Shown: piece after piece, positions 19,651 through 50,060 of the stretch
How the letters are laid out: each line of letters begins with the position of its first letter
How positions within the stretch are numbered: the stretch's first letter is position 1
Assembly: GCF_003130405.1 (NCBI RefSeq)
Contig: NZ_QEAS01000026.1
Coordinates: 19,045-75,993, forward strand
DNA: 56,949 bases
Direction: 5' to 3'
Origin: Pararcticibacter amylolyticus
GTDB lineage: Bacteria > Bacteroidota > Bacteroidia > Sphingobacteriales > Sphingobacteriaceae
Notes under the pieces: model-generated
The model's input: only the letters and a program-made list of their open reading frames with translations
Databases searched by the model: none
Told to the model about the DNA's origin: nothing
Made by a program: the position numbers and the translations under genes

Positions 19651-19725
19651 GCTGTATGTACAGCATGATCCGGGGGAACAGATGCCAGGCTTTTCCCTTA
19701 CCACCGCCAATTCCCCGGATTTTTA

Positions 19726-19733
19726 TATCTTTG
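19726..19733 (+). promoter_or_regulatory. Bacteroidota -7 element upstream of the cobalamin riboswitch
   Basis: TATCTTTG matches TAnnTTTG exactly and sits just before the riboswitch, so transcription would start about where the aptamer begins. Confidence 0.6.
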
Positions 19734-19739
19734 CCCAGC

Positions 19740-19905
19740 GTTGGTTTCTGTTCCTGTATCGGATCAGAATTAAAAGGGAATCCCGGTGTGAATCCGGAAC
19801 TGTCCCGCAGCTGTAAGCTCTGAAACCAAAATCCATTCTTTTGGCCACTGTAAATCGGGAAGGCCGGGTTGAGGGGAGCAAGTCAGAAGACCTGCCAATG
19901 CTGAA
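19740..19905 (+). ncRNA. Cobalamin (vitamin B12) riboswitch
   Basis: The conserved core is readable: GGGAATCCCGGTGTGAATCC followed by GGAACTGTCCCGCAGCTGTAA (about 19776-19818), and the B12-box-like AGCAAGTCAGAAGACCTGCC at 19878-19897. These are the sequence signatures of the adenosyl/hydroxocobalamin aptamer. The distance to the next start codon (20016) leaves about 110 nt for an expression platform. B12 would repress the downstream lipoprotein gene, as is usual for the class. Confidence 0.93.
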
Positions 19906-20015
19906 TGTTTATTCATGGCTTCCGGGGATTGAAGCTGGAATGAAGGTACTTACCGGGTATCTGCATTTTAGAATTTCGATATACCAGCATATTTACATTC
20001 GTGTTTAATCTGAAT

Positions 20016-31529: not shown

Positions 31530-31638
31530 GGCGGACCGGCTTCCGGCATGCGCATACAGATCCGTCAATTGTAGATCGCAGATCGGTCATTTCCGTGATA
31601 AACCGTCCCCCGTGTCCTCTTGAAAGCCCCCCAGTTGT

Positions 31639-31646
31639 TATCTTTG
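31639..31646 (+). promoter_or_regulatory. Bacteroidota -7 element of the HTCS gene
   Basis: TATCTTTG matches TAnnTTTG exactly, 12 to 21 nt before the two candidate ATG starts (31659 and 31668). A TTG lies 16 nt upstream of it, a slightly short -33 spacing. Confidence 0.5.
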
Positions 31647-31667
31647 AGCCTGGAATTAATGAATTAT

Positions 31668-34600: not shown

Positions 34601-35714
34601 GGACGTAACAGACCATGGTGTTCAGTTCACTGAAATCGAAGTGAGTGATACGGGAAGCGGGATCCCTGCTGACGCCATTTCAAAGATCTTTGAACGGTAT
34701 TATCAGGTTGGAAGGGACAGGCATGTATCGGGTACTGGCATTGGCCTGGCCCTCGCTCAGAATCTTGCATCCATTCATGAAGGAAAGATCTTCGTAGAAA
34801 GCACGCTGGGGGAAGGGTCATCTTTCCGGTTCCGCATCGGCACAAACAACGGGTATCCTGATGCGATACACCAGGATGCGGTGCTGCCTGAAGATGTTTT
34901 GATACATGAAGAGGGAAAGCAGTCCGGAGGAAAGCAGGTGGTGCTGGTAGTGGAAGACAATCATGATATCAGAGATTACATCTTCCAGTCCCTGTCAGAA
35001 CAGTATCTGGTTTATACGGCAGCGAATGGAAAGGAGGGCATTGAAAAGGCCTTTACGCACATTCCCGACATTATAGTAAGTGATATCATGATGCCTGAAG
35101 CGGATGGGTTTGAACTTGGTAAAACACTCAAAGAGGATATCAGGACCAGTCATATCCCGATCATTTTCCTAACCGTCAGGGATGCTGTGCTGGATCGTAA
35201 AGAAAGTTATAATATTGGCGTCGACTCTTATCTAACCAAACCATTCAGTGCAGAATTGCTGAAAAGCCGTATAGGTAATTTGCTTGACGCCCGGAAAAAG
35301 CTCGCTGAACTGATCAGCAAAAATACGGATAGTAAACATGCAGGCATTGCAGGCTCGCTGAACAAAATAGACAATGAATTTATTGAGAAAATAACCAGCG
35401 TTATTGAAGAGAATATTGATTCTGACAAGATTGATGTGGTGTTTATCGCTGATAAGATGATGATGAGCCATTCTACTTTATATCGTAAAGTGAAGGCGCT
35501 GGCAGGAATATCGGTCAATGAGTTTATCCGGAAGGTGAGGATCCGTCATGCCGAAAAGCTGTTGCTGACCGGCCGGTATACTATTTCGGAAATCTCTTAT
35601 ATGGTGGGAATCAACAGCATTACCTACTTCCGGCAATGCTTTAAAGACGAATTTGGCCTGGCTCCGTCAGAATATGTAAAGAAACTTAACAGCAGCGATT
35701 CCTCTTTGTCATAA
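31668..35714 (+). CDS. Hybrid two-component system sensor/regulator (HTCS)
   Basis: One polypeptide senses a periplasmic glycan fragment and activates transcription. A signal peptide (LLCLFCLVSLTLFGQ) precedes about 14 two-component propeller repeats (WFATESGLNRFDG, WIGTNNGLALFN, WVATGEGLVWF). Then come a Y_Y_Y domain (about 665-765; YAYMLRGLSDSWNQV) and one membrane helix (FWLTWWAKTIYMLAAGVVGW). The histidine kinase has phosphorylated His846 in FFTNITHELRTPLTL and ATPase motifs DTGSGIP and GTGIGLALAQ. The receiver has Asp1139 in VSDIMMPEADG, and the C-terminus is an AraC-type HTH. The start is the ATG at 31668 (or 31659), since an upstream TTG precedes the promoter element. It is divergent from the GH30/GH2 operon, its likely target. 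Confidence 0.95.
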   Translation: MPVKLLCLFCLVSLTLFGQTRNYDIKKLGIEQGISSNYVVSITQDRKGFLWFATESGLNRFDGSKFRVYKKNQGTSAISGNELNKVYADQYEDVVWIATQREGLNRFDCNTGKLTHYKHDDARPAGIITNDITDISNSGNGNLWISTYYRGVEYFDKKNETFIHYNRATVPGMVSDNVWSVAEDSKGNLYIGHVNAGLSILSLKDRKIRNFRHRAGDEASLPGDEVKTVYVDRSDNVWIGTNNGLALFNSEKGSFVVFKHDPANSLSLAANFVYTIRQLHDGKLWIGTEKGGISILDVKHNMFLDPRHILLEHISYSGDDSGLSNPTIRSIFQDSFNNIWLGTYGGGVNFIGHRPPLFRTWTYSPIQTRKEVLNNPVAWGISSDTRGRIWVGTDGGGINIFQNGRRTGTISRQKDKLADDAVLAAMRDSSGNLWFGTFKGGVNVLNPQGQRIIHFGAGGNDSDIRCFYEDSGHIVWVGSSSGLYQYNTLTKQLKLYSSGNSKIPGNLVRAVSKDNKGQLWVGFFGQGLAVLDKDLRVVKTYDTYSGFPSNTVNYIYRDRKGGMWVATGEGLVWFRNGGSYQAFTEKDGLSNSHIRAITEDANGNIWFSTIGGISRFMPSQKRFFNYDYHHGVPLGDFMSGSVTKDPGGKIYFGSQNGVCYFDPLLIPTHIKLPETIITGFKVYQNQLKADNVSDLPVNSGIHLNYRQNTFSVSFNVLDFSLNQLTEYAYMLRGLSDSWNQVQGDNSVTFRNIPPGTYELLIRSRIKNQDWKDNITSLRIVISPPFWLTWWAKTIYMLAAGVVGWFILRFYKRKLNLENSLVLEKMNHRHEQELHDERIRFFTNITHELRTPLTLILGPLEDLKGETGLSENHSSRISVIHKSAARLLTLINQLLEFQKTESQNRKLTVLRGNIEQLVLETGLKYKELNTNKNVDFSIVSETRNTTWYFDPDIVATILDNLLSNAFKYTQTGSIVLALRDVTDHGVQFTEIEVSDTGSGIPADAISKIFERYYQVGRDRHVSGTGIGLALAQNLASIHEGKIFVESTLGEGSSFRFRIGTNNGYPDAIHQDAVLPEDVLIHEEGKQSGGKQVVLVVEDNHDIRDYIFQSLSEQYLVYTAANGKEGIEKAFTHIPDIIVSDIMMPEADGFELGKTLKEDIRTSHIPIIFLTVRDAVLDRKESYNIGVDSYLTKPFSAELLKSRIGNLLDARKKLAELISKNTDSKHAGIAGSLNKIDNEFIEKITSVIEENIDSDKIDVVFIADKMMMSHSTLYRKVKALAGISVNEFIRKVRIRHAEKLLLTGRYTISEISYMVGINSITYFRQCFKDEFGLAPSEYVKKLNSSDSSLS

Positions 35715-35828: not shown

Positions 35829-37283
35829 ATGACTGAAACAGTAAAAACGGATTATGATGCAGTGGTGGTCGGATCGGGCCCGAACGGACTTGCGGCAGCT
35901 ATCACGCTTCAGCGCCGGGGACTCTCTGTGCTTCTCCTCGAGGGCAAAAATGAAATCGGTGGAGGCATGCGTTCATCCGAACTGACCTTACCGGGTTTTG
36001 TTCATGATATCTGTTCGGCTGTACATCCCCTTGCTATCGCTTCTCCTTTTTTTACCGGGCTTCCGCTCGAGCAATACGGGCTTGAATATATTACGCCCGG
36101 CATATCCGCTGCGCATCCATTTGATAATGGGAATGCTGCAATTCTCCTGCCTTCGATAGAACAGACGGCCGGCCGGCTTGGTGATGACGGAGATACTTAC
36201 CGGCGGCTGATGGAGCCGCTCGTCCGGGATTGGCCTCTCATCAGCAGTGATCTGCTGGGGCCTTTGCGTATCCCTTCTCATCCTGCTGCTTTTGCCCGGT
36301 TTGGACTGAAAGCTCTGCCCTCAGCTTTGCAGCTTGCCGGCCGTTTCCGTACCATGGAAGCCCGGGGACTCCTGGCCGGGATGGCGGCACATTCTATACA
36401 GCCGCTGTCTAATCCCGCCACCTCCGCTATAGCACTGGTACTGATGATAAACGGGCATCTGGCAGGCTGGCCTGTGCCAAAAGGAGGCTCTGCATCTATC
36501 ACAAAGGCGCTCGCCTCTTACTTCCTCGCATTGGGAGGGAAAATAGAGACGGACTTTTTTGTTACCAAACTCAGCCAGCTTCCGTCTGCCAGAGCTGTTC
36601 TGTTTGATGTGGGCCCCGCACAGCTATTACAGATCGCCGGCCACCGCTTTTCCCGGATCTATCGCTGGCAACTGGAACGATACCGCTATGGGATGGGAGT
36701 GTTTAAGATCGATTGGGCGCTGGATGGGCCGGTTCCGTTTACTGCACCTGACTGCCGGAGAGCGGCTACCGTTCATCTTGGCAACACCATTGAGGAGATT
36801 GCTGCAAGTGAAAAAGCGGCTTTTAGAGGGCAGGTTAGCGAACGCCCCTTCGTGCTGCTGGCACAACAGAGCCTGCTTGACAGTTCCAGGGCACCGGAGG
36901 GCAAACATACCGCCTGGGCCTATTGTCATGTCCCCTTTGCTTATAAGGGTGATATGACTAAAGCGATCGAGACACAGGTAGAGCGTTTTGCTCCCGGCTT
37001 CCGTGAACGCATACTCGCCCGCCATACCATGAATGCGGGTGAAATGGAACAATACAACCCCAACTATATTGGTGGTGATATCAACGGCGGACTTCAGGAT
37101 ATCAGGCAGATCTTTACGCGTCCGGCACTGAGATCCTCTCCCTACCGCACTTCTGCTAAAGGGCTCTACATCTGTTCTTCTTCAACTCCTCCGGGAGGAG
37201 GGGTACACGGAATGTGCGGATATCATGCAGCGAAAGCAGCGTTAAAGGACGTTTTTAAAGAAGATCCGGAAAAACTGATCTGA
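35829..37283 (+). CDS. Phytoene-desaturase-like FAD-dependent oxidoreductase
   Basis: The N-terminal dinucleotide-binding motif is DAVVVGSGPNGLAAAITLQRRG (residues 9-30), followed by VLLLEGKNEIGGGMRS. The C-terminus has the second FAD-contact motif, LYICSSSTPPGGGVHGMCGYHAA. This layout fits the CrtI/PYROXD2-like amine-oxidase superfamily. At 484 residues it is normal. No crtB or other carotenoid gene is adjacent, so a role in carotenoid synthesis is not supported; PYROXD2-like proteins are often of unknown substrate. It is monocistronic, between the HTCS gene and a terminator at 37379. Confidence 0.88.
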   Translation: MTETVKTDYDAVVVGSGPNGLAAAITLQRRGLSVLLLEGKNEIGGGMRSSELTLPGFVHDICSAVHPLAIASPFFTGLPLEQYGLEYITPGISAAHPFDNGNAAILLPSIEQTAGRLGDDGDTYRRLMEPLVRDWPLISSDLLGPLRIPSHPAAFARFGLKALPSALQLAGRFRTMEARGLLAGMAAHSIQPLSNPATSAIALVLMINGHLAGWPVPKGGSASITKALASYFLALGGKIETDFFVTKLSQLPSARAVLFDVGPAQLLQIAGHRFSRIYRWQLERYRYGMGVFKIDWALDGPVPFTAPDCRRAATVHLGNTIEEIAASEKAAFRGQVSERPFVLLAQQSLLDSSRAPEGKHTAWAYCHVPFAYKGDMTKAIETQVERFAPGFRERILARHTMNAGEMEQYNPNYIGGDINGGLQDIRQIFTRPALRSSPYRTSAKGLYICSSSTPPGGGVHGMCGYHAAKAALKDVFKEDPEKLI

Positions 37284-37408: not shown

Positions 37409-37500
37409 CGTTTTCCATTGAGAAGAAAAGGCTTAATATGTTCTTTCTGCGGCTTTTGATAAATAATCTACAAAATCTATAGACTATTTCTAATAATCAT

Positions 37501-37508
37501 TATATTTG
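37501..37508 (+). promoter_or_regulatory. Bacteroidota -7 promoter element of the organosulfur operon leader
   Basis: TATATTTG matches TAnnTTTG. It is the only exact match between the terminator at 37379 and the SusC gene at 38007. It lies 56 nt before the first leader mini-gene, so the transcript would carry both mini-genes and a leader of about 490 nt. Confidence 0.55.
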
Positions 37509-37563
37509 TTGCACAAGTACGGACAGGCCGTATGATTTTATTATTGCCAAATAAAAGACAAGT

Positions 37564-37641
37564 ATGAAAAATTCAATTACTCAGATTGCTGATTCTCATT
37601 TTTTCTGTGACGCCCATCGTTGTAGTACAAACTGCTGTTAA
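37564..37641 (+). CDS. Cysteine-rich leader peptide 1 (25 residues)
   Basis: The mini-gene starts MKNSITQIADSHFF and ends CDAHRCSTNCC followed by TAA, so four of its last eleven residues are cysteine. It is homologous to the mini-gene at 37841: both begin ATGAAAAAT, both have CAGATTGC for QIA, both have His-Arg or His-Lys before the end, and both finish TGCTGT-stop. An AATAAAAGACAAGT-like sequence precedes the ATG, similar to that before the second peptide. No signal peptide is seen. By analogy with cysteine-rich leader peptides in other phyla it may make ribosomes stall when charged tRNA-Cys is scarce; the mechanism is inferred. A short RiPP-like product is the alternative. Confidence 0.6.
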   Translation: MKNSITQIADSHFFCDAHRCSTNCC

Positions 37642-37695
37642 ACGCAAATACCAGCGCCCGGTATGATAGAGTATTACCTGTATTTATAAGAAGAT

Positions 37696-37731
37696 ATGGG
37701 TGATTGCAACAGGACAGACCCGGAGTGTTAG
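37696..37731 (+). CDS. Possible third mini-gene between the two leader peptides
   Basis: An 11-residue frame reads MGDCNRTDPEC and stops 5 nt before the hairpin at 37737. It ends in Cys like its neighbours but lacks the MKN and QIA features. It could be chance. Confidence 0.2.
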   Translation: MGDCNRTDPEC

Positions 37732-37736
37732 AAAAA

Positions 37737-37756
37737 TCCGGCAGTTTCCTGCCGGA
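37737..37756 (+). promoter_or_regulatory. Leader hairpin A
   Basis: TCCGGCA (37737-37743) pairs with TGCCGGA (37750-37756), loop GTTTCC. There is no T-tract after it, so a plain terminator is unlikely. It lies between the two leader mini-genes and may take part in attenuation or RNA processing. Confidence 0.5.
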
Positions 37757-37765
37757 CAGTGTTGC

Positions 37766-37800
37766 GATAATCAGACATAATTCCACTCAGACTGATTATC
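37766..37800 (+). promoter_or_regulatory. Leader hairpin B
   Basis: GATAATCAG (37766-37774) pairs exactly with CTGATTATC (37792-37800), with a 17-nt loop. It ends 40 nt before the start of the second leader mini-gene. Confidence 0.5.
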
Positions 37801-37840
37801 CATTTATTAAAAATCAACTTCTTAATAAACGATCAAAGTT

Positions 37841-37897
37841 ATGAAAAATAACTTATTACAGATTGCCATCTTTCCACGCCATAAGCTTTGCTGTTGA
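37841..37897 (+). CDS. Cysteine-rich leader peptide 2 (18 residues)
   Basis: The full peptide is MKNNLLQIAIFPRHKLCC, ended by TGA. It shares MKN, QIA at positions 7-9, a basic segment with His, and the terminal Cys-Cys with the peptide encoded at 37564, so the two are duplicates that diverged in the middle. It lies 109 nt before the SusC start. A short hairpin, CATGC/GCATG (37913-37929), and CCGGT/ACCGG (37953-37965) follow it. The conserved C-terminal Cys-Cys next to the stop codon suggests that the cysteine codons are what is under selection. Confidence 0.6.
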   Translation: MKNNLLQIAIFPRHKLCC

Positions 37898-37912
37898 TTT
37901 TCTGTTTCAGAC

Positions 37913-37965
37913 CATGCATAAAGAGCATGTGATGTTCCGGCATTTGTCATGACCGGTCAGACCGG
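37913..37965 (+). promoter_or_regulatory. Small hairpins between leader peptide 2 and SusC
   Basis: CATGC (37913-37917)/GCATG (37925-37929) with a 7-nt loop, and CCGGT (37953-37957)/ACCGG (37961-37965) with a 3-nt loop. Both are short. They could form alternatives with upstream RNA but I could not fold the whole leader. Confidence 0.35.
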
Positions 37966-38006
37966 CGTGATCTCATAGTAAAATATTAACGCTTAAAGTT
38001 TAAATT

Positions 38007-41000
38007 ATGGTAAATATCCCAGGAACCGGGTTGCCCAGTTATGCAACGGCCGGCAAGATTCCTGTTGTTATAAAAAAGAGCCTTCTCTTTGTTCTTCTTT
38101 TGCTGGCTGTCAGTGGTTTGATGGCTCAGGATTATTCAGTTCATGGTGTGGTGACAGGAAAAGACGATGGGTTTCCGCTGCCGGGAGTGAGTGTCCTTGT
38201 AAAGGGAGCTTCCTCCGGTACAGTAACAGACAATGCCGGAAAGTTTTCCATTACGATACCTTCGGGCAGAAATATACTGGTTTTCAAGTTCATTGGTTAT
38301 AATACGCTTGAGCTGCCTGTAAGCAGGGAGCGCGAACTTAAGGTAACGCTGGAGACCGATCATAAACAGCTGAACGAAGTAGTTGTTACCGGGTATAATG
38401 TACAAAGCCGTAAGGATTTTACGGGTTCAGCCGCCCGCGTTAATGCGTCTCAGATTGAAAACCGGCCAGCCCAAAGCTTTGACCAGCTGCTCGGTGGGCA
38501 GGCCTCCGGTGTCAATATCGTGCAGCCCGGCGGAGTGCTCAATGCTACCCCGGTATTCAGGATAAGGGGTATAAACTCGATATCGTCGGGTATCTATCCC
38601 CTGGTTATCATTGACGGCGTTCCTTCCTTTACCGGCCAGCTCGGCGGCAATGTAGGAAACAACCCTCTTTCGAATGTGAATCCTTCAGATATAGAATCCC
38701 TGGATATATTAAAAGATGCCTCGGCAACAGCCATCTATGGGTCGAGGGCCGCCAACGGCGTAGTGGTTATTACTACTAAGAAGGGAAAAAAGGGAAGGGT
38801 GAAGGTGGATTATGACGGATGGGTAAACTTCAGTACGCCTTATAATTTACCTAAGCTGCTGAATGCCTATGATTATGTCACGATAAAGAATGAAGCGATG
38901 GTGAATTCAAGCCGGGAACCCGGCTTTGCCTTGCAGACCCTTTCTGACGGCACAGTGGTCAATACCGACTGGTACGACGTTGCTTATCATACGGGTGTTT
39001 CACAGGGGCACAACATCGGTTTTTCAGGAGCAACAGATGCTACCAGTTATTTCATTTCTCTCGGTTACTCTGATCAGAACGGAATACTGAGAACCAACAC
39101 CCTGGATCAGAAAACAGCCCGGATCAACCTGGACCACCAGCTTCTTAGTAATTTAAAAGCAGGTACCCATTTATCCTATAGCAATTCGCTTGGAAAAGGT
39201 CCGGCGTCAGGTTCACTGCCTGGCCAGTATATCGGTACCGACGCACTGTCGCGGATGACGTATATTCTGCCCCCCAATGTGGCGGTTTATAATGAAGACG
39301 GTTCCTACAATATCCAGGATAAGCAAAGGGTAGGGTACGGAGCTAATAATGCGGTGGCTACAAGTGCCGGGTATGTAGGAAACATCAATGCATACAACCT
39401 GCAATTGATCCTCGACCTCGATAAGTATAGCTCCGAAAACAATTCACTGATAGGCGATGTGTTCGCCGAATGGGAAATTGCAAAAGGGCTCAGGATAAAA
39501 ACCAGTTATGGCCTGAATAAGCTCGTGGTAGAGAACCTGAGCTTTCAGAACGGACTTCATGGAGATGCAGGTCCCGCTAATGGAGGTGCTACTAACTCTA
39601 ACAGACGGCTTAACCGCACCGACTGGGTTAACACATTGACCTATAATAAATCCTTTGGCGGCCTGCATAACATAAATGTGCTGGCGGGATATGAAGAGAT
39701 CGTCACCACCAATGATATCTGGGGGGCACAGAGGACGGGTCTTACAGATCCTTTCTTTACGAGCTTTCAGGGAGGTTTCACTACGATTACCGCTCCGGCA
39801 GGCCTTAACTCCCAGAGCAGGAATGGCTTCATTTCTTACTTTTCAAATCTTAATTACAATTTCAAAGAGAAATACCTGTTAAGCTACAGCTTCAGAAGGG
39901 ATGGTTATTCCGGTCTTCCAGGGGGAAGCCGCTATGGGAATTTTAGTGGCGGATCTGTCGGATGGATAATTTCAGAAGAAGGTTTTTTTAAATCGTCAGC
40001 CCTGGTTGATGTCATCAGTAATATCAAACTAAGAGCAAGCTATGGAGAGGTCGGAAATATCAATATAGGGGATTTCCCTTCACTGGGTCTCTACACCGCC
40101 GGTACCTATAACGGGGTCCCTACGTTGGGATATTCCCAGGCGGGCAACAGCAACCTTCGCTGGGAAACCAGCAAGAAGACTGATGCCGGGGTAAGCTTTT
40201 CCTTTTTTAATGACCGCATCACGCTGGAAGCTGATTATTATTACAACAAAGTAGACGGCCTGATCCTCGATGCTAAACAGGCACCGTCGAAGGGCATCCC
40301 GGGGAATGTAATCAGTGCCAATGTAGGGTCGCTCTATAACAAGGGGCTTGAATTCAGCGTAAACGCATCCCTCATCAGCAGGGCGAGCTTTAAATGGAGT
40401 ACCAATATAAACCTGTCGACCGTCAAAAACCGGGTTACAACCCTGTTCAATTCTACAGATATCTACACGCCAAGTAATTTTGGTATTCAGAACATGACAA
40501 GGGAGGGCTACTCCGTGGGTTCAATCTGGGCAGTGCCAACCGACGGAGTCAACCCGGATAACGGCAACAGGGTCTTTATTAACCGCAATAACGAGAAGGT
40601 TCAGTATAACCATGCAGCGGCAAATAAGTGGACATACCTTGACGGAAGCGTAGCTCCGGCTATAGATAATTATCTCGATGGACGTATCCAGGGTTCGTCA
40701 CTTCCTGCCTGGTATGGCGGATTTAACAATTCGTTTGGATATAAAAACTTTGACCTGACTGCCGGGATCATCTTTTCAGGAGGCAATAAATTATACAACG
40801 GCACCCGGGCAAATCTCCTCGACCAGCGGTATTTTAACAACGGAACGTTTGTACTGGACAGGTGGACCAGCCCTGGTCAGAAAACCGGCATCCCAAAACT
40901 CTATTTTTCTGATAATGTGTCTACTGGCTTCTCCATTACCAATTCGGCCATGGTTGAAGACGGCGACTTTATCAAGCTCAAGAATGTCGCACTCGGATAC

Positions 41001-41204
41001 AAGGTTCCTGTGCAGAAGATTGCCAGGGGAAGGATTTCGTCACTGAGAGTGTTTGTCCAGGCAACCAACCTGTTTACCATCACTGATTATAGCGGGTCGG
41101 ACCCTGAAATCTCCATAAATGGAAATTCTATTGCTTCCGGTAAGGATCACAATGCCGTAGCCAATGCAACCACTTATGCGATTGGTATTAATCTGGGTCT
41201 CTGA
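38007..41204 (+). CDS. SusC/RagA family TonB-dependent outer-membrane transporter
   Basis: This is the first structural gene of the organosulfur-like operon. A long N-terminal leader precedes the signal sequence VIKKSLLFVLLLLAVSGLMAQ. The carboxypeptidase-like domain has LPGVSVLVKGASSGTVTD and DNAGKFSITI. The TonB box-like motif is NEVVVTGYNVQ. The plug has PLVIIDGVPSF and ILKDASATAIYGSRAANGVV, and the barrel ends YAIGINLGL. Length 1065 residues. It follows two cysteine-rich mini-genes and is 18 nt upstream of its SusD. The neighbours suggest that it imports an amide-linked or sulfonated organic compound and not a glycan; this is inference. Confidence 0.94.
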   Translation: MVNIPGTGLPSYATAGKIPVVIKKSLLFVLLLLAVSGLMAQDYSVHGVVTGKDDGFPLPGVSVLVKGASSGTVTDNAGKFSITIPSGRNILVFKFIGYNTLELPVSRERELKVTLETDHKQLNEVVVTGYNVQSRKDFTGSAARVNASQIENRPAQSFDQLLGGQASGVNIVQPGGVLNATPVFRIRGINSISSGIYPLVIIDGVPSFTGQLGGNVGNNPLSNVNPSDIESLDILKDASATAIYGSRAANGVVVITTKKGKKGRVKVDYDGWVNFSTPYNLPKLLNAYDYVTIKNEAMVNSSREPGFALQTLSDGTVVNTDWYDVAYHTGVSQGHNIGFSGATDATSYFISLGYSDQNGILRTNTLDQKTARINLDHQLLSNLKAGTHLSYSNSLGKGPASGSLPGQYIGTDALSRMTYILPPNVAVYNEDGSYNIQDKQRVGYGANNAVATSAGYVGNINAYNLQLILDLDKYSSENNSLIGDVFAEWEIAKGLRIKTSYGLNKLVVENLSFQNGLHGDAGPANGGATNSNRRLNRTDWVNTLTYNKSFGGLHNINVLAGYEEIVTTNDIWGAQRTGLTDPFFTSFQGGFTTITAPAGLNSQSRNGFISYFSNLNYNFKEKYLLSYSFRRDGYSGLPGGSRYGNFSGGSVGWIISEEGFFKSSALVDVISNIKLRASYGEVGNINIGDFPSLGLYTAGTYNGVPTLGYSQAGNSNLRWETSKKTDAGVSFSFFNDRITLEADYYYNKVDGLILDAKQAPSKGIPGNVISANVGSLYNKGLEFSVNASLISRASFKWSTNINLSTVKNRVTTLFNSTDIYTPSNFGIQNMTREGYSVGSIWAVPTDGVNPDNGNRVFINRNNEKVQYNHAAANKWTYLDGSVAPAIDNYLDGRIQGSSLPAWYGGFNNSFGYKNFDLTAGIIFSGGNKLYNGTRANLLDQRYFNNGTFVLDRWTSPGQKTGIPKLYFSDNVSTGFSITNSAMVEDGDFIKLKNVALGYKVPVQKIARGRISSLRVFVQATNLFTITDYSGSDPEISINGNSIASGKDHNAVANATTYAIGINLGL

Positions 41205-41222: not shown

Positions 41223-42698
41223 ATGAAAACTGATTACAGGAATATAAAAAACACATTCTTTGTGCTGATTGGACTCGCCGCGTTGTCCGGCCTTCCATCC
41301 TGCACCAAAGATATACTCGATACCTCTCCCAAAACCGACATCTCGGAACTCACCGCCTTCAGTACCCCTGAAAAGATCCTGGCACAGGTAAACAATCTCT
41401 ATTCCAGGTTGCAAAGAGCTCATTTTTACGGCGGCCGCTACATTCTGTTCAATGAACAGCGCGGCGACGAGTTCAGCCAGAATTCGGGAAATGCCGCCGA
41501 AGGAGCGTTGATTTGGCAGCATACAGCCTTATCAACCGATACATTCGTCGGAAACCTCTGGAGCTTTGCTTACCAGGCAATCAATAATGCTAATATATTT
41601 ATAGACAAGGTTCAGAACACGACCGTACTGGATGCTGCGCTGAGGGATCAGTATATAAGCGAAGCAAAGTTCATAAGAGCACTTTCCTATTTTGTGCTGG
41701 TACAGGTCTATGCCAGGCCTTATGCAAGCGATAACGGAGCAAGTCCGGGACTTCCTTTAAGGCTCACTCCGCAGACGTCGGGCGGGAATGACGACCTTGC
41801 CCGCAGTTCCGTGGCTGAGGTGTATAGCCAGGTTATTAAAGATCTTGATGAAGCGGAAGCCGGGCTTCCCGCAGCATACAGTACGGCAGCACTCAACGCT
41901 TCCCGCGCCCATAAAGTTACTGCCATTGCTTTAAAGACCAGGGTATACCTGGCGAAAGCCGACTATGGCAGGGTGGTCGCAGAAGCATCGAAACTTGTCC
42001 CCGCGGTTGCGCCATATGCCTATACTGCGGGTTCTCTTACCCACAGGCTTGAAAACAACATTGCAGCCGTGTTCTCCGGTTCTTATACCGGGAATGAAGC
42101 GATTTTCTTTCTCCCTTTCAATGCCACAGATTCCCCGGATTCGCAAAGCGCTCTTGCGCATAATTACCTGGGAGCTGTGATCATTTCATTAAACCAGGCG
42201 GGAATCTATGCTAACCCGGCGCTGTCATCTTCCGCTTCTGCTGACGCCCGGCGGAACCTGATTACGCTGAAGAACGGGCTGAATGTGCTGTCGAAATTTC
42301 CAAAGATCACCACCCCGTTTACCGATTATATTCCCGTGATCCGGTATGCAGAGGTATTGCTGAACTATGCAGAGGCAGCGGCGGAAACTGATGATCTGAC
42401 CAGGGCTGCCGCCTTGCTGAATGCTGTCAGAAAGCGATCCGATGCCGCTTATTCTTTTCCGGATGCGGCAACCTCAACAAAAGGGGCACTCATCAGCACT
42501 ATCCTCACAGAACGCCGGCTCGAATTATTAGGTGAAGGGTTCAGAACCCCTGATTTGCAGAGGAGGCTTCAGCCTTTTCCGGCCAAAACCGGTGGAATAG
42601 GCACCGTAGCAGCAGTATCCCCCACGGCAAGCAACTATATATGGCCGGTTCCGGCAGATGAGCTCGGCACAAACAAGCTTATTCAACCGAATCCATAA
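41223..42698 (+). CDS. SusD/RagB family nutrient-binding outer-membrane lipoprotein
   Basis: This is the substrate-binding lid of the SusC protein just upstream. The lipobox is LPSC (Cys27), followed by TKDILDTSPKTDISE. SusD blocks are EAKFIRALSYFVLVQVYARPY near residue 140, IRYAEVLLNYAEAAAETDD near 375 and LTERRLELLGEGFRTPDLQRR near 430. The C-terminus is LGTNKLIQPNP. At 491 residues it is on the short side and, unlike the other SusD proteins here, lacks the AASPL(Y/F)NGGG segment. It starts 18 nt after SusC and 21 nt before the first amidohydrolase. Confidence 0.92.
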   Translation: MKTDYRNIKNTFFVLIGLAALSGLPSCTKDILDTSPKTDISELTAFSTPEKILAQVNNLYSRLQRAHFYGGRYILFNEQRGDEFSQNSGNAAEGALIWQHTALSTDTFVGNLWSFAYQAINNANIFIDKVQNTTVLDAALRDQYISEAKFIRALSYFVLVQVYARPYASDNGASPGLPLRLTPQTSGGNDDLARSSVAEVYSQVIKDLDEAEAGLPAAYSTAALNASRAHKVTAIALKTRVYLAKADYGRVVAEASKLVPAVAPYAYTAGSLTHRLENNIAAVFSGSYTGNEAIFFLPFNATDSPDSQSALAHNYLGAVIISLNQAGIYANPALSSSASADARRNLITLKNGLNVLSKFPKITTPFTDYIPVIRYAEVLLNYAEAAAETDDLTRAAALLNAVRKRSDAAYSFPDAATSTKGALISTILTERRLELLGEGFRTPDLQRRLQPFPAKTGGIGTVAAVSPTASNYIWPVPADELGTNKLIQPNP

Positions 42699-42719: not shown

Positions 42720-44444
42720 ATGAATAAAACGATATGGCTTATTGCACCTGCTGCTTTGTTGCTGCTTTGCGTATCATTCAGGAAAGTAAAACATGAAGAT
42801 AACCAGGAAGCGGCAGACAGGATATATATAAACGGTCATGTGATTACCATGGACCCGTCTCATCCCGAAGCAGAAGCGCTGGCGGTGAAAGACGGCAGGA
42901 TAATAGCAGTGGGAAGCTCGGGATCAATCGGACAGATGAAAGGTCCGCAGACTGTTGTGACCGATCTGGAAGGAAAGGCTTTAGTTCCGGGCTTTATAGA
43001 CGGGCATAGCCACTTTATGAGCCTGGGACGTTCAAAAACAGCGGATCTGTCACCTCCCCCGGTAGGAGAAGTGACGTCTATTCCCGGTCTTGTAAATGCG
43101 CTGAAAAAGTTTCAGAAAGAAAAGAATATAAAGGCAGGGGTGTGGATCACCGGTCGTGGCTACGATCCCGACCAGCTGGCTGAAGGACGCCACCCCGTTA
43201 AGGAGGATCTGGATGCGGCCTTTCCTGATAACCCGGTTCTCATTACCCATACCTCGGGCCATATGTCGGTAGCCAACTCCTATGCTCTAAGGATATCCGG
43301 CGTAAATGCTTCAACAAAAGACCCCGAAGGGGGAAAGATTGTCAGAAAAGCAGGCAGCAATGAACCGACCGGCCTCCTGCTTGAACGGGCCCGCTCAGTA
43401 CTGAAAACGGGCGAAGGGGAAAAGTTGTCTTTAGACGAGCAGTTGAAACTGCTCGACGAACAGCAGGCTCTCTATGCCAGCCAGGGCATCACTACCGCCC
43501 AGGACGGCAGCTCGAGCCTCGCCTCAGTTGTCTTGTTGAAAGAAGCCGCCAGGAGGAAGCGGCTCTACATTGATATCGAATCATTGCCTTCCTATGCGAT
43601 CCTCGACCGCATCCTGACAGATTCCCAATATGTGTTCAATAAGTTACAGAATCACTTAAAGCTTAAAGGAACCAAGATTTTTACGGACGGCTCACCTCAG
43701 GGAAAAACTGCTTTTTTCAGCAAACCTTACCTGACTGAAGTGCCCGGTTGCAGTGACCATTGTACAGGGATCCCCACCATCACCCAGGAAAAGCTGAATG
43801 AAGCGCTTATATATTGCTTTAAGCATAAAATCCAGGTTTATACACACTGCAACGGAGATGCTTCTATTGATATGTATATTCAGGCTGTCAGGAATGCGAA
43901 TACAAAGTTCCCCGGCTACAGCCGGGAACTCAGGCCGGTTGTGATCCATTCACAGTTCGTAAGGGCCGATCAGCTCGACAGCTACCGGGAACTCGGAATG
44001 ATCCCTTCGTTTTTTACAAATCATGCTTTTTTCTGGGGAGATGTGCATGTACGTAATCTCGGGAAAGAACGTGCCTGGTTTCTCAGCCCGGCAAAAACAG
44101 CCCTTGAGAAAGGTGTTCTGTTTACCAATCACACTGATTTTGGCGTAACGCCCATCAACCAGCTATTCCTGCTGTGGACCTCCGTTACCAGGGAATCGCG
44201 TTCAGGCCAGGTAATCGGCCCTGATCAGAGGCTTACGGTAACCGAAGGGCTCCGCGCTATTACTCTCAACGGAGCGTGGCAGTACTCGGAGGAGAAAGAG
44301 AAGGGAAGTATAGAAAAAGGAAAGCTGGCAGACCTGGTGATCCTTTCCGATAATCCCCTGACTGTTCCCGCCGGCCGGATAAAAGATATCACTGTACTGG
44401 AAACGGTCAAGGAAGGGAAAACAATCTTTAAACATCAGCAATAA
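42720..44444 (+). CDS. Secreted YtcJ-like amidohydrolase 1
   Basis: This is a metal-dependent hydrolase of the amidohydrolase-3 type (YtcJ / N-substituted formamide deformylase group) that probably splits an amide bond. A hydrophobic N-terminal signal (TIWLIAPAALLLLCVSF) predicts export to the periplasm. Metal-site motifs are VPGFIDGHSHF (HxH), TDGSPQGKTAFFSKPY, QVYTHCNGDASIDMY, VIHSQF and FTNHTDFGVTP. The last residues, KGSIEKGKLADLVILSDNPL, are the normal cytosine-deaminase-like C-terminal strand. Length 574. The gene lies between SusD and a close paralog and has the same strand and tight spacing. Confidence 0.9.
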   Translation: MNKTIWLIAPAALLLLCVSFRKVKHEDNQEAADRIYINGHVITMDPSHPEAEALAVKDGRIIAVGSSGSIGQMKGPQTVVTDLEGKALVPGFIDGHSHFMSLGRSKTADLSPPPVGEVTSIPGLVNALKKFQKEKNIKAGVWITGRGYDPDQLAEGRHPVKEDLDAAFPDNPVLITHTSGHMSVANSYALRISGVNASTKDPEGGKIVRKAGSNEPTGLLLERARSVLKTGEGEKLSLDEQLKLLDEQQALYASQGITTAQDGSSSLASVVLLKEAARRKRLYIDIESLPSYAILDRILTDSQYVFNKLQNHLKLKGTKIFTDGSPQGKTAFFSKPYLTEVPGCSDHCTGIPTITQEKLNEALIYCFKHKIQVYTHCNGDASIDMYIQAVRNANTKFPGYSRELRPVVIHSQFVRADQLDSYRELGMIPSFFTNHAFFWGDVHVRNLGKERAWFLSPAKTALEKGVLFTNHTDFGVTPINQLFLLWTSVTRESRSGQVIGPDQRLTVTEGLRAITLNGAWQYSEEKEKGSIEKGKLADLVILSDNPLTVPAGRIKDITVLETVKEGKTIFKHQQ

Positions 44445-44515
44445 GAGATGAAGCCTATGTTCCGGCTTTGGAAATCAGCTGGATCCGGCTTTATACATAA
44501 CAAATGCAACTAAGA

Positions 44516-46231
44516 ATGAATACAACACTTAAAAAGGCATGGGGAATAGCCCTGGCGCTTGTCATCTCGAAAGGATCGGGTGCACAAACCCACGCTCCCG
44601 ACAAGATTTTCATAAACGGAAAAGTCCTTACCATCGACTCATCCAATTCTATAGTGCAGGCTCTGGCCATTCGGAATGGAAGGATCGAAGCAGTAGGCTC
44701 TACGGCTCAGATAAGCCGCTTAAAAGGAAAGTCTACGGCGGTCATTGATCTGAAAGGGAAAACGGTAGTCCCCGGCTTTATCGACGGACACAGCCATTTT
44801 ATGGGCTTAGGACAACTTGACCTGGTGAATATAGCTGCACCGCCTGTAGGTAAAGTCACTTCAATAGCCGGGCTGGTAGAGGAGGTCAGGAAATTCAGGG
44901 ACGAAAGAAAGATAAAAGCGGGACAGTGGATTGCCGCCTATGGCTACGATCAGGATCAGCTGACGGAGAAAAGACACCCTGCGAAAGAGGATCTGGACGC
45001 GGTGTTCCCGGACAACCCCGTCCTGCTCGGCCATATTTCCGGGCACATGCTCGTAGCTAACTCAGCCGCTCTCAGGCTGGCAGGTATTACAGCGGCTACC
45101 AAAGATCCGGACGGCGGAATGATTATCCGGAAACCCGGAAGCTCAGAACCTGCCGGCCTGTTGCAGGAAAACGCCCAGGCTTTAGTCATGAAAGAGCTGA
45201 ACAAGCAAAAACCTTCTCCCGAAAAGCAAATGGATCAGATCAGGAGACAGCAAGTGTTTTATGCCAGTTTCGGTATTACAACAGCGCAGGATGGTTTCAC
45301 CAGTCAGGAATCCCTGGACCTGTTAAAGCAGGCTGCTTCCGAAGGTAAGCTTTTCCTGGATGTGGTAGCCCTTCCTTCATTTGTTCTGCTCGATAAGATT
45401 ATTGCTGATCCGGCTGCCTATAAGTTTGGGTTCTACGACAAACGCCTGAAGCTCGACGGGATCAAACTATCATCGGATGGTTCTCCGCAGGGGAAAACAG
45501 CATTTTTCTCAAAGCCCTATCTCACGCCGGTTCCCGGTTGTGACGATCACTGCACCGGCTTTCCCACCATCACCCAGGAGAAATTTAACGAAGTTGTACT
45601 GAAATGTTTCAGTCACAATCTGCATCTGTATACCCATTGCAATGGCGACGGAGCCATCGATATGTATATAGAAGCGGTAAAAAATGCCAATAAGGAACTT
45701 CATTCCGGCAGTATTGGCCGCCGGACGGTCGTCATACATTCGCAGTTTGTAAGGGACGACCAGCTCGATCAGTATAAAGAGCTGGGACTGATGCCCTCGT
45801 TTTTCACCAATCACGCCTTTTTCTGGGGTGATGTACATACGCAGAACCTGGGGAAGGAGCGTGCGGCCTTTTTAAGCCCCCTTCATAGCGCAGGAAGAAA
45901 GGGAATCATATACACCAATCATACCGATTACCCGGTGACACCGGTCAATCCGTTGTTCCTGCTATGGACCTCGGTAAACCGTTTATCCAGATCAGGACAG
46001 GTGATTGGAGCAGAGGAGCGTATCTCAGTCGCAGAAGGTCTGCGGGCTATCACAATCAATGGCGCCTGGCAGTATCATGAAGAAAAAGACAAGGGTTCCG
46101 TAGAGAAAGGAAAGCTTGCAGATCTGGCCATCCTTTCAGACGACCCGCTCTCAGTTGAGCCTGCCAGGATCCGTGACATTGAAGTGCTTGAAACTATTAA
46201 GGAAGGTAAGACCATTTACAGGAAAAATTAA
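44516..46231 (+). CDS. Secreted YtcJ-like amidohydrolase 2
   Basis: This is a paralog of the preceding gene, similar over its whole length. Shared blocks are VPGFIDGHSHFMGLG, SSDGSPQGKTAFFSKPYL, YTHCNGDGAIDMY, VIHSQFVRDDQLDQY, FFTNHAFFWGDVH and NHTDYPVTPVNPLFLLW. A signal peptide ends near GSGAQ. I prefer the ATG at 44516 (MNTTLKK) over 44504. All metal ligands appear conserved in both copies, so both should be active, perhaps on different acyl or amine groups. It is 4 nt from the monooxygenase start, so the two are translationally close. Confidence 0.9.
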   Translation: MNTTLKKAWGIALALVISKGSGAQTHAPDKIFINGKVLTIDSSNSIVQALAIRNGRIEAVGSTAQISRLKGKSTAVIDLKGKTVVPGFIDGHSHFMGLGQLDLVNIAAPPVGKVTSIAGLVEEVRKFRDERKIKAGQWIAAYGYDQDQLTEKRHPAKEDLDAVFPDNPVLLGHISGHMLVANSAALRLAGITAATKDPDGGMIIRKPGSSEPAGLLQENAQALVMKELNKQKPSPEKQMDQIRRQQVFYASFGITTAQDGFTSQESLDLLKQAASEGKLFLDVVALPSFVLLDKIIADPAAYKFGFYDKRLKLDGIKLSSDGSPQGKTAFFSKPYLTPVPGCDDHCTGFPTITQEKFNEVVLKCFSHNLHLYTHCNGDGAIDMYIEAVKNANKELHSGSIGRRTVVIHSQFVRDDQLDQYKELGLMPSFFTNHAFFWGDVHTQNLGKERAAFLSPLHSAGRKGIIYTNHTDYPVTPVNPLFLLWTSVNRLSRSGQVIGAEERISVAEGLRAITINGAWQYHEEKDKGSVEKGKLADLAILSDDPLSVEPARIRDIEVLETIKEGKTIYRKN

Positions 46232-46235
46232 TCAT

Positions 46236-47399
46236 ATGTTAGAGAAGATTGTACCGGTTAACGTGAGAACCGCTCAGCGCGTAGCGGAAGTTTCATGGTT
46301 CAACGATATCATTGGCGGAGATACTGAGTATCTCGGCGTTCTGGATGAAAAGCGAAGGAGCAGCTTTGAACATTGCAGGGACATTACCCTCGCAGCCGAG
46401 CGGCTCGGTTTCAGTAAGATCCTTTTGCCGAGTGCTTATACAGTGGGCCAGGATGTCCTCACTTTTGCCTCGGGGGTAGCTCCCTTTACCAGTAAGATTA
46501 ACCTGCTCGCTGCCATCCGGACCGGGGAAGTCTATCCGCCTATGCTGGCCAGGGCTCTTGCATCGCTCGATCATATGCTAAAAGGCCGTCTCACCATCAA
46601 CATCATTAATTCAGACCTCCCCGGTCTTCGCGAAGATCCTGCTCTGCGTTACCAGCGTTGTGCAGAAACAATAGAAATACTGAAACAGGCCTGGACACAG
46701 GAGTATATCGACTTTAAAGGCGACCTGTACCAGGTAAAACTGCCCGCCGATCCGGTAAAGCCCTGGCAGCAGAACGGAGGCCCGCTGCTTTATTTCGGGG
46801 GAACTTCTGATGGGGCGAGAGACATCTGTGCCCGTTACTGCGATACCTTCCTGATGTGGCCGGAAACAGAAGAAAGCATGTACGAAACAATGCAGGATAT
46901 GAGCGCCCGCGCTGCGTCTTACGGGCGTACCATCGACTTCGGGCTGCGCATCCATGTGGTGGTGCGCGAGCATGAATCAGAAGCAAGGGCATATACCAAA
47001 CGCCTCCTGACATTCTTCAATGAACAGCGTGCTGCCGAAATAAGAGCCAGAGGGGAGGATTCCCGCTCTCTTGGAGTGATCCGGCAGGATGAAATGCGGA
47101 AGTATGCTGATGCCGAAGGTTTCATTGAGCCCCATCTGTGGACCACTATCGGGAAGGTCTTCTCCGGATGCGGAGGCGGCCTGGTGGGCGATCCGGATCA
47201 GATTGTAGCCAAGCTGAACCGTTACCTGGATATGGGGATCCGCGCATTTATTTTTTCAGGATTTCCATTGATTGAAGAGGCGGAATATTTTGCCAGGTAT
47301 GTTCTGAACAGGCTGCCTAATGTATCCCTGTCAGAATTGCACCAGCGGGTGCCACTTGAAACACCCGTCACTCCCTTAACATCTGCTGTATTACATTAA
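46236..47399 (+). CDS. SsuD-like LLM-class flavin-dependent monooxygenase
   Basis: This is a cytoplasmic FMNH2-dependent monooxygenase of the luciferase-like barrel family. It aligns by eye with E. coli alkanesulfonate monooxygenase SsuD over its full length: AERLGFSKILLPSAY, GRLTINIINSDLPG, PLLYFGGTSDGARDICARYCDTFLMW, FGLRIHVVVREHESEA and GIRAFIFSGFPLIEEAEYF. The SsuD Arg/His pair of the FGxRxHV motif is kept. The residues corresponding to SsuD Cys54 and His11 appear replaced (alignment from memory), so the substrate may differ. I set the start at the ATG at 46236 (MLEKIVPVNVR), four nt after the amidohydrolase stop. It would need a flavin reductase encoded elsewhere. Release of sulfite from a sulfonate is the likely role. 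Confidence 0.85.
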   Translation: MLEKIVPVNVRTAQRVAEVSWFNDIIGGDTEYLGVLDEKRRSSFEHCRDITLAAERLGFSKILLPSAYTVGQDVLTFASGVAPFTSKINLLAAIRTGEVYPPMLARALASLDHMLKGRLTINIINSDLPGLREDPALRYQRCAETIEILKQAWTQEYIDFKGDLYQVKLPADPVKPWQQNGGPLLYFGGTSDGARDICARYCDTFLMWPETEESMYETMQDMSARAASYGRTIDFGLRIHVVVREHESEARAYTKRLLTFFNEQRAAEIRARGEDSRSLGVIRQDEMRKYADAEGFIEPHLWTTIGKVFSGCGGGLVGDPDQIVAKLNRYLDMGIRAFIFSGFPLIEEAEYFARYVLNRLPNVSLSELHQRVPLETPVTPLTSAVLH

Positions 47400-47409
47400 A
47401 CACCTGTCG

Positions 47410-48852
47410 ATGAACATAACCAGTGAAGTTGAAAAGCCTCAGGCCCTGAAGGAGTCTGAAGGAATGAAAAGGGAACTGAACCTGCTCGACGCAACCCTGC
47501 TTGTTGCAGGCAGCATGATCGGGTCGGGCATCTTTATTGTCAGTGCAGATATTACCCGTCACAGCGGTTCCGCAGGCTGGCTGATCGCCGTTTGGCTGAT
47601 CGGAGGCTTTATGACGCTTATTGCAGCCCTCAGCTACGGTGAGCTTAGTGCTATGTATCCCAAAGCCGGGGGGCAGTATGTCTATTTAAAAGAAGCGTAT
47701 AATCCGTTGACGGCCTTTCTCTATGGATGGAGCCTTTTTGCCGTAATCCAGACGGGTACTATTGCTGCCGTTGGTGTGTCATTCTCCAAATTCCTGGCTT
47801 ACCTTGTCCCGCAGGTTAGCGAAGACCTGGTTTTATTTTCCGTAGGATCCTTTCATGTGTCGCCTGCGCAGGTACTCGCGATCGGTATCATCTTCTTCCT
47901 GACATGGGCTAATACAAAAGGAGTAAAAGGGGGGAAGGTTATTCAGGCAATATTCACCCTCACCAAATTATTAAGCATCATCGGCCTGATCATTTTCGGG
48001 TTTATTTATTTTAAGCCGCAGGTCTGGAATGTAAACTGGACGCAGGCCTGGGATCTCCAGCGGATCACAAAGGATGGATCATTGCTGTCTTATGAAGGGC
48101 TGCCTGCAATAGGCGGAGCCCTGGCATCAGCACTTGTCGGAGCAATTATGAGCTACGAAGCCTGGAATAATGTAACATTTGTTGCAGGAGAGATCACGAA
48201 TCCCCGGAAGAACATCGGCCTGAGCCTTCTGTTCGGAACTTTACTTGTAACTCTTATCTATGTTTTACTCAACATTATGTTCACCGCAGTTCTGCCGCTT
48301 CACGAGATTGCTACCGCTGAGAAAGACCGTGTCGGCATTGGGGCGTCCCATGCTATTTTCGGAAGTGAAGGCACTGTGATCATTGCGTTGCTGATCATGG
48401 TGGCAACGTTCGGGTGCAACAACGGGCTTATACTGGCAGGGGCCCGGGTGTACTACAGCATGGCGAAAGACGGATTGTTCTTCAGGAGAACCGCAAAGCT
48501 TAACAGGCATTCAGTGCCGGCAGTTGCTTTATGGGCACAGTTCTTAATGGCTTCCTTGCTCTGTCTCAGCGGAAAGTACGGTGATCTTCTTGACATGATC
48601 ACGTTTATTGCCGTATTATTTTATGTACTGACGATAGGAGGGGTTTTCATTCTGAGGGTGCGGCAGCCCGCAGCGGAAAGGCCGTATAAGGCAGTTGGTT
48701 ATCCCATACTTCCTGCAGTATATATCCTGCTTGGATTAAGTTTTTGCATTCTGCTGATCATTTATAAACCGGGGTTTACATGGCCCGGACTCATCATTAC
48801 ACTCATTGGAGTGCCGCTTTATTATCTGCAAAAGAAACCATTGAAGTTATGA
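47410..48852 (+). CDS. APC superfamily amino-acid-type permease
   Basis: This is an inner-membrane importer with about 12 hydrophobic helices. The first has the APC signature ATLLVAGSMIGSGIFIVSADI. Further conserved parts are YPKAGGQYVYLKEAYNP, ANTKGVKGGKVIQAIFTLTKLLSI, MSYEAWNNVTFVAGEITNPRKNIG and YYSMAKDGLFFRRTAKLNRHSVP. The protein (480 residues) resembles the LAT/SteT-like branch. It is the last gene of the operon, 10 nt after the monooxygenase. A logical role is to bring the amine or sulfonate released in the periplasm by the amidohydrolases into the cytoplasm; this is inferred from position. Confidence 0.9.
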   Translation: MNITSEVEKPQALKESEGMKRELNLLDATLLVAGSMIGSGIFIVSADITRHSGSAGWLIAVWLIGGFMTLIAALSYGELSAMYPKAGGQYVYLKEAYNPLTAFLYGWSLFAVIQTGTIAAVGVSFSKFLAYLVPQVSEDLVLFSVGSFHVSPAQVLAIGIIFFLTWANTKGVKGGKVIQAIFTLTKLLSIIGLIIFGFIYFKPQVWNVNWTQAWDLQRITKDGSLLSYEGLPAIGGALASALVGAIMSYEAWNNVTFVAGEITNPRKNIGLSLLFGTLLVTLIYVLLNIMFTAVLPLHEIATAEKDRVGIGASHAIFGSEGTVIIALLIMVATFGCNNGLILAGARVYYSMAKDGLFFRRTAKLNRHSVPAVALWAQFLMASLLCLSGKYGDLLDMITFIAVLFYVLTIGGVFILRVRQPAAERPYKAVGYPILPAVYILLGLSFCILLIIYKPGFTWPGLIITLIGVPLYYLQKKPLKL

Positions 48853-49958: not shown

Positions 49959-49991
49959 TAAGTGATCCGGTGCAACCGGGAAAACGGATAG

Positions 49992-50009
49992 CCCGGAAGA
50001 GCTTCCGGG
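49992..50009 (+). terminator. Short hairpin downstream of the YD-repeat lipoprotein
   Basis: CCCGGAAG and CTTCCGGG are complementary with only two bases between. It lies just before the stronger terminator at 50018. Confidence 0.5.
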
Positions 50010-50017
50010 AGTTATAC

Positions 50018-50060
50018 AAAGACCATCCCTGTACGACAAACCGGGATGGTCTTTTTGTTT
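50018..50060. terminator. Strong, probably bidirectional terminator
   Basis: AAAGACCATCCC (50018-50029) pairs with GGGATGGTCTTT (50043-50054), followed by TTGTTTTT on the plus strand. It separates two convergent genes and can serve both. Confidence 0.85.

Follow-up and report, generated by a model that had tools for sequence, protein, structure and literature searches.

A likely cysteine-sensing leader upstream of a SusC/SusD operon in Pararcticibacter amylolyticus

Introduction

The trp, his and leu leader-peptide attenuators are the classical amino acid attenuators. A cysteine-responsive kind is known from mycobacteria, where polycysteine leaderless short ORFs act as cysteine-responsive attenuators (Canestrari et al. 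2020, PMC8764745; cited in PMC9094748 and PMC13236596). Among Bacteroidota, transcriptomes of B. thetaiotaomicron and F. psychrophilum include leader-peptide-like sORFs that were suggested to mediate attenuation (PMC7366714, PMC9723704). SusC/SusD systems are mainly read as glycan importers, and their substrates are hard to guess.

Here we analyze a stretch of 56,949 nucleotides from Pararcticibacter amylolyticus (the whole stretch is called the window below). A preliminary description, made from sequence alone, had reported two tandem mini-genes with MKN, QIA and CC motifs before a SusC gene, and this held exactly as described. In our reading, positions 37466 to 38006 are likely to be a cysteine-sensing sulfur-control leader of the SusC/SusD operon; translation, pausing and the response to cysteine are inferred.

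Like the mycobacterial polycysteine leaders, this leader has short upstream frames with clustered Cys codons that are thought to place downstream genes under the control of cysteine supply. One apparent difference, with the transcript start not mapped, is that the frame starts at 37564, about 55 nt beyond a putative promoter element that ends at 37508, and not at the mRNA end. The Bacteroidota targets are TonB/SusC outer-membrane receptors, a palindromic promoter box is present, and a second frame or a start-Cys-stop micro-ORF with hairpins is sometimes added, as is a SAM-I riboswitch at one locus, L244. With the trp, his and leu attenuators the leader shares a short frame that carries, close to its end, regulatory codons for a single amino acid, and the attenuator criterion of a short 5' leader frame with clustered codons of one amino acid is met. 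In contrast to those attenuators, the stretch from leader 1 to SusC in the window holds no intrinsic terminator, no general alternative pairing was found, and the target is import, not biosynthesis. The SAM-I riboswitch (RF00162) is comparable in exerting sulfur-type control on some SusC relatives (L148 to L150), but it is a different kind of sensor and was not found before the window operon. The B. thetaiotaomicron and F. psychrophilum sORFs are also short frames in Bacteroidota 5' leaders, but the relevant sections of those papers contain no Cys class and no SusC link.

The open-access literature searched gave us no description of Cys leaders in any Bacteroidota or upstream of SusC, and the earlier statement that none is known for SusC/SusD operons held within that literature. 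Novelty is provisional because most subscription papers fall outside it. Provisionally, then, what is new is the Bacteroidota and SusC/TonB setting, the cysteine-responsive kind of leader being already known from mycobacteria.

Results

Two Cys-ending frames precede the window SusC gene

The features of the control region and operon are listed in Table 1. The host genome (6.3 Mb, 153 contigs) contains at least 56 SusC genes.

Table 1. Features of the leader region, the operon and their upstream neighbors in the window
Feature	Position	Strand	Basis or remark
Hybrid histidine kinase/regulator	31620-35714		Gene end about 1.75 kb upstream of box
FAD oxidoreductase, just upstream of control region	35829..37283	+	Homolog inside 17/60 clade operons
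Palindromic promoter box ATCTACAAAATCTATAGACT (reverse AGTCTATAGATTTTGTAGAT)	37466..37485	none	Exact copy of box pattern
Putative Bacteroidota -7 element TATATTTG	37501..37508	+	Read from sequence
Leader ORF 1, MKNSITQIADSHFFCDAHRCSTNCC-stop	37564..37641	+	25 codons, 4 Cys in last 11
Hairpin 1, TCCGGCAG-TTTC-CTGCCGGA	37737..37756	+	z -3.6
Hairpin 2, GATAATCAG ... CTGATTATC	37766..37800	+	z -4.4
Leader ORF 2, MKNNLLQIAIFPRHKLCC-stop	37841..37897	+	18 codons
Small hairpin CATGC/GCATG, past leader 2	37913..37929	+	Stretch z -0.75, not beyond shuffles
Small hairpin CCGGT-CAG-ACCGG, past leader 2	37953..37965	+	Stretch z -0.75, not beyond shuffles
SusC/RagA TonB-linked receptor	38007..41204	+	TIGR04056, 762.6 bits, over cut-off
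SusD-like lipoprotein	41223..42698	+	SusD/NanU families below cut-offs; position after SusC
Amidohydrolase 1	42720..44444	+	Amidohydrolase families, below cut-offs
Amidohydrolase 2	44504..46231	+	Amidohydrolase families, below cut-offs
SsuD-like LLM monooxygenase	46236..47399	+	TIGR03565, 235.8 bits vs cut-off 518.2; predicted relative of SsuD
APC-type amino acid permease	47410..48852	+	Amino acid permease families, below cut-offs

Both leader ORFs lie upstream of the SusC start on the same strand and have in common the MKN start, QIA at residues 7 to 9 and a terminal CC, with 5 of 15 internal positions identical. When everything but the start Met and the terminal CC was shuffled, five or more identities arose in 0.07% of 20,000 trials; with MKN fixed, three further identities arose in 2.1% of shuffles. 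The identity of the two frames is higher than shuffles usually reach, but partly because the MKN start is common to both. Their common descent is plausible and remains unproven. Each frame has two adjacent Cys codons, below the number in the strict-rule leaders described below.

Six of the 749 ATG frames of 8 to 60 codons on both window strands end in CC. Four of these lie inside frames of at least 150 amino acids, which leaves leader ORFs 1 and 2 as the only ones outside. When the 723-nt intergenic region was simulated 5,000 times with a Markov model, CC-ending frames averaged 0.009 per region and two never occurred (0/5,000); it is very unlikely that the window's pair arose by chance. A degenerate pattern fitted to both frames, from MKN to QIA, matched only the window frames across 301 family genomes, and the peptide sequence itself is therefore not conserved. 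The peptides that were tried against protein families had no match.

Cys leaders recur across one SusC clade

At locus L124, a second SusC gene near the monooxygenase gene, on the opposite strand, has a leader that ends in four Cys codons. Relatives of this SusC are present in 87 of 301 family genomes (E 1e-240), and 60 loci, mostly the best scoring of 100 listed places and including many close relatives, made up our clade set. Leaders were scored as ATG frames at most 500 nt upstream with at least two Cys in the last four codons (loose rule) or at least three in the last five (strict rule). The loose rule was met at 36 of the 60 clade SusC loci and 3 of 99 control SusC genes, and the strict rule at 24 of 60 and 0 of 99, respectively. 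The controls comprised 30 own-genome SusC loci and 69 of 80 other SusC loci, after exclusion of L031 (an ortholog) and 10 loci lacking upstream sequence; for the own-genome list, 56 of 207 candidates were scored, and the window SusC was absent from it.

The strict-rule leaders represent nine genera. A scan of all twenty residues found Cys alone to be enriched (23/60 regions against 0.11 expected), each of the other 19 giving 0 or 1 regions and Cys on the reverse strand giving none. Cys codon usage in the 24 strict leaders was mixed (TGT 65, TGC 41).

Codon pairs were compared within four sets that together held 13 related leaders. Those involving Cys differed in 5 of 48 cases and all others in 154 of 417. 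These sets were picked by their Cys ends (one by an exact end sequence, one at a fixed length), and the Cys conservation is partly circular; free of this circularity is the observation that the leader bodies drift, mostly with amino acid changes. An uncircular test, the presence of loose-rule leaders in close SusC pairs, gave agreement no better than chance: among 45 pairs with at least 85% identity, both members had a leader in 14, one in 21 and neither in 10.

Reading of 25 clade loci accounts in part for this poor agreement. Even the loose rule is failed by 24 of the 60 clade members. Three loci have runs of four or five Cys a few codons before the stop that the rule misses (L215, ending RCCCCCELCV; L224, HCCCCFMQ; L226, RCCCCRFSK). 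At L221, L230, L231, L233 and L237 the frame closes with one Cys codon or with spaced ones, and a group of relatives has one or few terminal Cys (MRMCTC, MRMCY, MRMCR and MRMC before the stop). At L203, L206, L216, L223 and L225, no clear leader was evident on reading. Our conclusion from these 25 loci is that the Cys leader evolves fast and is sometimes lost.

Arg-Met-Cys ends (RMRMC, EVMRMC, GRMCC) occur at L221, L227 to L230, L232 and L233, a sub-family with few Cys codons.

In a class-wide sample, the SusC clade was present in 4 of 295 genomes (E 1e-200). Cys-ending frames were found at L276 and L278, one about 700 nt away at L275, and none at L277; the L276 leader is in the genome of another family. 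The preliminary description was to count as refuted if neither the mini-genes nor their Cys codons proved to be conserved in related genomes, and the outcome was mixed but favorable. The peptide sequence failed, being confined to its own genome among 301. The part that held is that short Cys-ending frames recur before SusC/TonB receptors, with Cys alone enriched.

The leader accompanies SusC rather than the monooxygenase

Orthologs of the window monooxygenase are present in 6 of 300 other family genomes (E 1e-60) and 6 of 394 other genomes in a phylum sample (E 1e-130); no relative was found in viral contigs. By model comparison, the window gene is predicted to be a relative of SsuD and is not a called SsuD. 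Cys-coding leaders recur where SusC and SusD precede the monooxygenase. The L122 operon (SusC, SusD, amidohydrolase, monooxygenase, permease) has the leader MKKTYTQPRFILNFNSLKMRCCCI, followed by a stop, before SusC, and L133, from another family, has a TTG-start frame ending NTFCYMCFCC before the SusC of a similar operon. Frames similar to the L133 leader also lie upstream of SusC at L141 and L142. In the two operons most like that of the window, L031 and L121, the only such frame is a start-Cys-stop micro-ORF, ATGTGTTGA, preceded by a strong Shine-Dalgarno-like sequence.

At nine monooxygenase loci without a preceding SusC/SusD pair (L120, L123, L125 and L134 to L139), we found no convincing Cys leader; at L137, a receptor-like gene is preceded, at a distance of 350 nt, by a frame of 7 codons, two of them Cys. 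Locus comparison thus supports the view that the Cys leader tracks SusC/TonB receptors and the promoter box rather than the monooxygenase. The earlier suggestion that such leaders might co-occur with LLM monooxygenases is corrected accordingly: the leader goes with SusC/TonB and the box instead.

The monooxygenase-permease pair of L120, which has no SusC and no Cys leader, is accompanied by a box-like site with four mismatches (13340-13460).

A palindromic box precedes most leaders

The sequence GTCTAYRGATTTNGTAGA or close variants of it precede most of the Cys leaders, typically about 20 nt before a TATRTTTG-like element; TAnnTTTG is the Bacteroidota -7 consensus. The box pattern was composed after inspecting the window and its relatives. 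It occurs within three mismatches in 47 of 67 regions and in 0 of 67 after letter shuffling.

Three sites in the own 6.3-Mb genome are at most three mismatches from AGTCTATAGATTTTGTAGAT (a reversed control gave two), the window box being one of them, and Cys leaders follow all three. At L244 (own genome C80:22613, positions 1500 to 2100), the box comes first, then a SAM-I riboswitch (85 bits), a frame of 49 codons with the end CCKRMCCC, and a PA-domain gene, an arrangement that could represent two sulfur sensors in series. At L245 (own genome C2:449085, minus strand), the box is directly followed by MGHYIFSQCRCCCCCF and a stop, and then by a TonB-dependent receptor.

A box search that was independent of SusC returned 73 places in 121 family genomes, against 13 for the reversed control. 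A locus was returned for 32 of these, namely the three own sites already known and 29 others. Cys leaders lay within 450 nt on either side at 13 of the 32 box loci (10 by the strict rule) and in 1 of 64 control segments (0 strict). With the own sites removed, they were found at 10 of 29 (8 strict). Box loci overlap clade loci at least once, L272 being the same site as L210. Further box-linked genes encode TonB receptors, an Aminotran_5 protein (L267), which we take to be a cysteine desulfurase, an AhpC/TSA-family protein and an ECF sigma factor. That the box itself is the operator of an Rrf2-type regulator is a guess that rests only on the look of the motif.

Start-Cys-stop micro-ORFs

Start-Cys-stop frames lie within 500 nt of 10 of the 60 clade SusC genes, against 1.3 expected and a maximum of 6 in 100 simulations. 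Of these micro-ORFs, six lie about 30 nt upstream of a hairpin of the ACCGGCAAGG type and three upstream of one of the GGGGAA type.

ATG-TGT-stop before a hairpin upstream of SusC was seen at L186, L187, L188, L191, L197, L208, L212 to L214, L031 and L121. The micro-ORFs of L212 to L214 have a strong Shine-Dalgarno-like sequence with ATG directly before it. The middle codon in relatives can also be Tyr (L160) or Ser (L162).

RNA structure downstream of the leader

No terminator-like site was found on the + strand between 37641 and 38007; a weak one lies upstream of leader 1 (37517-37533). The window stretch with hairpins 1 and 2 is far more stable than its shuffles (z -4.65). In part of the clade, two hairpins likewise follow the leader. 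In the second, the arms covary and the loop, GTAACGCCAATCAC, is nearly invariant; this hairpin is not known to us as an RNA family. A covariance model of these two clade hairpins, R1, had two-sided changes at 9 of 18 pairs and a covariation score above all 500 shuffles. R1 exceeded 40 bits at 16 of the 60 clade loci, but 14 of the 16 are sites used to build it. Of 60 genomes including the own genome, 2 matched R1 at E 0.001 under stricter filters, and the own genome was not among them. The window hairpins occur in the same order as the clade hairpins; a common origin is conceivable but unproven.

The R1 match in the window leader is weak (37736-37811, 19.6 bits). It ranks second in the window, behind a likely terminator at 49990-50063 that is the best chance match, and it did not appear at E 0.05 in a search of 67 sources. 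We do not claim that the window carries the R1 RNA family.

The GTAACGCCAATCAC-loop hairpin lies about 125 to 50 nt before SusC at L183 to L194 and relatives. On reading, the second hairpin loop at L031, L121, L122, L172 and L176 resembles the reverse complement of the GTAACGCCAATCAC loop.

Over 23 loci, the Cys run did not pair consistently with sequence further downstream (mean z +0.13); the window on its own was favorable, at -15.4 where 200 shuffles averaged -10.3 and went no lower than -15.8. In the 110 nt after the leader stop, 35 leader loci had means of 22.7 C and 17.5 G, whereas a stretch at a fixed distance before 80 control SusC genes had means of 20.1 C and 21.4 G. The excess of C over G was greater at the leader loci (Mann-Whitney p 6e-6, relatedness ignored). 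The window has 21 C and 28 G after leader 1 and 20 C and 22 G after leader 2.

Sulfur-related genes and riboswitches

After SusC and SusD, the clade operons contain two unnamed membrane proteins in 47 of 60 loci. A FAD oxidoreductase gene is present in 17 (the single member compared with the window oxidoreductase, at L183, is 70% identical to it), a YeiH-like putative sulfate exporter in 17 (97 bits, cut-off 233), a peptidase S51/cyanophycinase-like gene in 10, a cytochrome c in 8 and a SoxC-like sulfite dehydrogenase in 5 (342 bits, cut-off 420). Across the 60 loci, sulfur-type genes were not clearly commoner beside leader-bearing members: the YeiH-like gene accompanies 11 of 36 with a loose-rule leader and 6 of 24 without one, and the FAD gene gives the same counts.

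SAM-I riboswitches precede the SusC relatives L148 to L150, from the genus of genome G617. In the window there was no SAM-I match (RF00162) at the gathering score, and in its leader none at E up to 5. The sulfur link proposed earlier is supported by the YeiH-like and SoxC-like neighbors and by SAM-I riboswitches on SusC relatives and L244. Judging from neighboring genes and these riboswitches, sulfur supply is probably the theme of these operons; the imported compound is not identified.

Genome G617 has one SusC with a SAM-I riboswitch (L150) and one with a Cys leader (L140).

Discussion

In the explanation that we favor, transcription would start at a promoter under the palindromic operator and yield an mRNA with one Cys-ending peptide or two encoded in its 5' part. 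Ribosomes would pause at the Cys codons when cysteinyl-tRNA is scarce, and would finish the peptide and leave when it is plentiful. Pausing would alter events further down the leader such that the SusC/SusD operon, giving the outer-membrane receptor, amidohydrolases, SsuD-like monooxygenase and permease, is made when cysteine is short. Our computations show that the frames exist, that the kind recurs with Cys-specific ends before TonB/SusC genes, and that some neighbors are sulfur related. That the frames are translated, that ribosomes pause on them, that pausing raises expression, and whether transcription or translation is the step used are all matters of inference. Searches for a terminator, an alternative pairing and a C-rich stretch identified no step leading from pausing to expression. 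The original suggestion that ribosome behavior at Cys codons controls the operon is thus supported at the level of the class of leaders, the response to cysteine being inferred.

A bolder reading, toward which we lean slightly less than away, is that Bacteroidota have a regulon for cysteine limitation in which the palindromic operator acts together with a single Cys-codon leader frame or a pair of them. The second of a pair would sometimes be AUG-UGU-stop, the smallest possible sensor; the system would work without an intrinsic terminator; and its targets would be outer-membrane TonB/SusC receptors for organosulfur compounds. If true, Bacteroidota gain a ribosome-based cysteine sensor with an extreme start-Cys-stop form. 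A Cys-codon leader may also mark, by sequence alone, which SusC genes serve sulfur supply.

One possible form of the favored explanation involves Rho: a ribosome that has finished would expose a C-rich stretch after the leader and a paused one would not. The excess of C over G after the leader at the 35 leader loci relative to the 80 controls speaks for it, as does the absence of an intrinsic terminator from the stretch that separates leader 1 and SusC there, but the window itself does not fit, with G exceeding C after both leaders. A different view, which we consider unlikely, assigns control to the box with an unidentified binding protein, or to the kinase/regulator at 31620-35714, and leaves the Cys peptides as accessories, perhaps small peptides of a thiol or metal-binding kind, or else precursors. 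In its favor, the box is linked to promoters (47/67 regions against 0/67 shuffled), a box-like site precedes the leaderless monooxygenase-permease pair of L120, and the kinase gene ends about 1.75 kb before the box. Against it, a box and a leader peptide can coexist, the leader bodies drift, unlike a functional peptide, and the peptides tried matched no family.

It might also be argued that the frames are chance products, or that a (TGT)n repeat or other nucleic acid motif happens to read as Cys, since short frames are common and Cys runs are built of similar triplets. This is very unlikely: the Val and Leu readings of such repeats are not enriched, the reverse strand has no Cys cases, TGT and TGC are mixed, and two frames arose in none of the 5,000 window simulations. 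We retain the cysteine-sensing leader as the likeliest reading.

Other RNA elements in the window

No Rfam family matched the window leader at its gathering score; the best weak match was to a Bacillus sRNA model on the opposite strand (22 bits, cut-off 100). Neither the window nor its leader had an Rfam T-box riboswitch match. The intergenic double hairpin at 49990-50063 has a T-rich end and is a probable terminator. A cobalamin riboswitch (110.7 bits) lies at 19725-19913, upstream of the gene at 20001.
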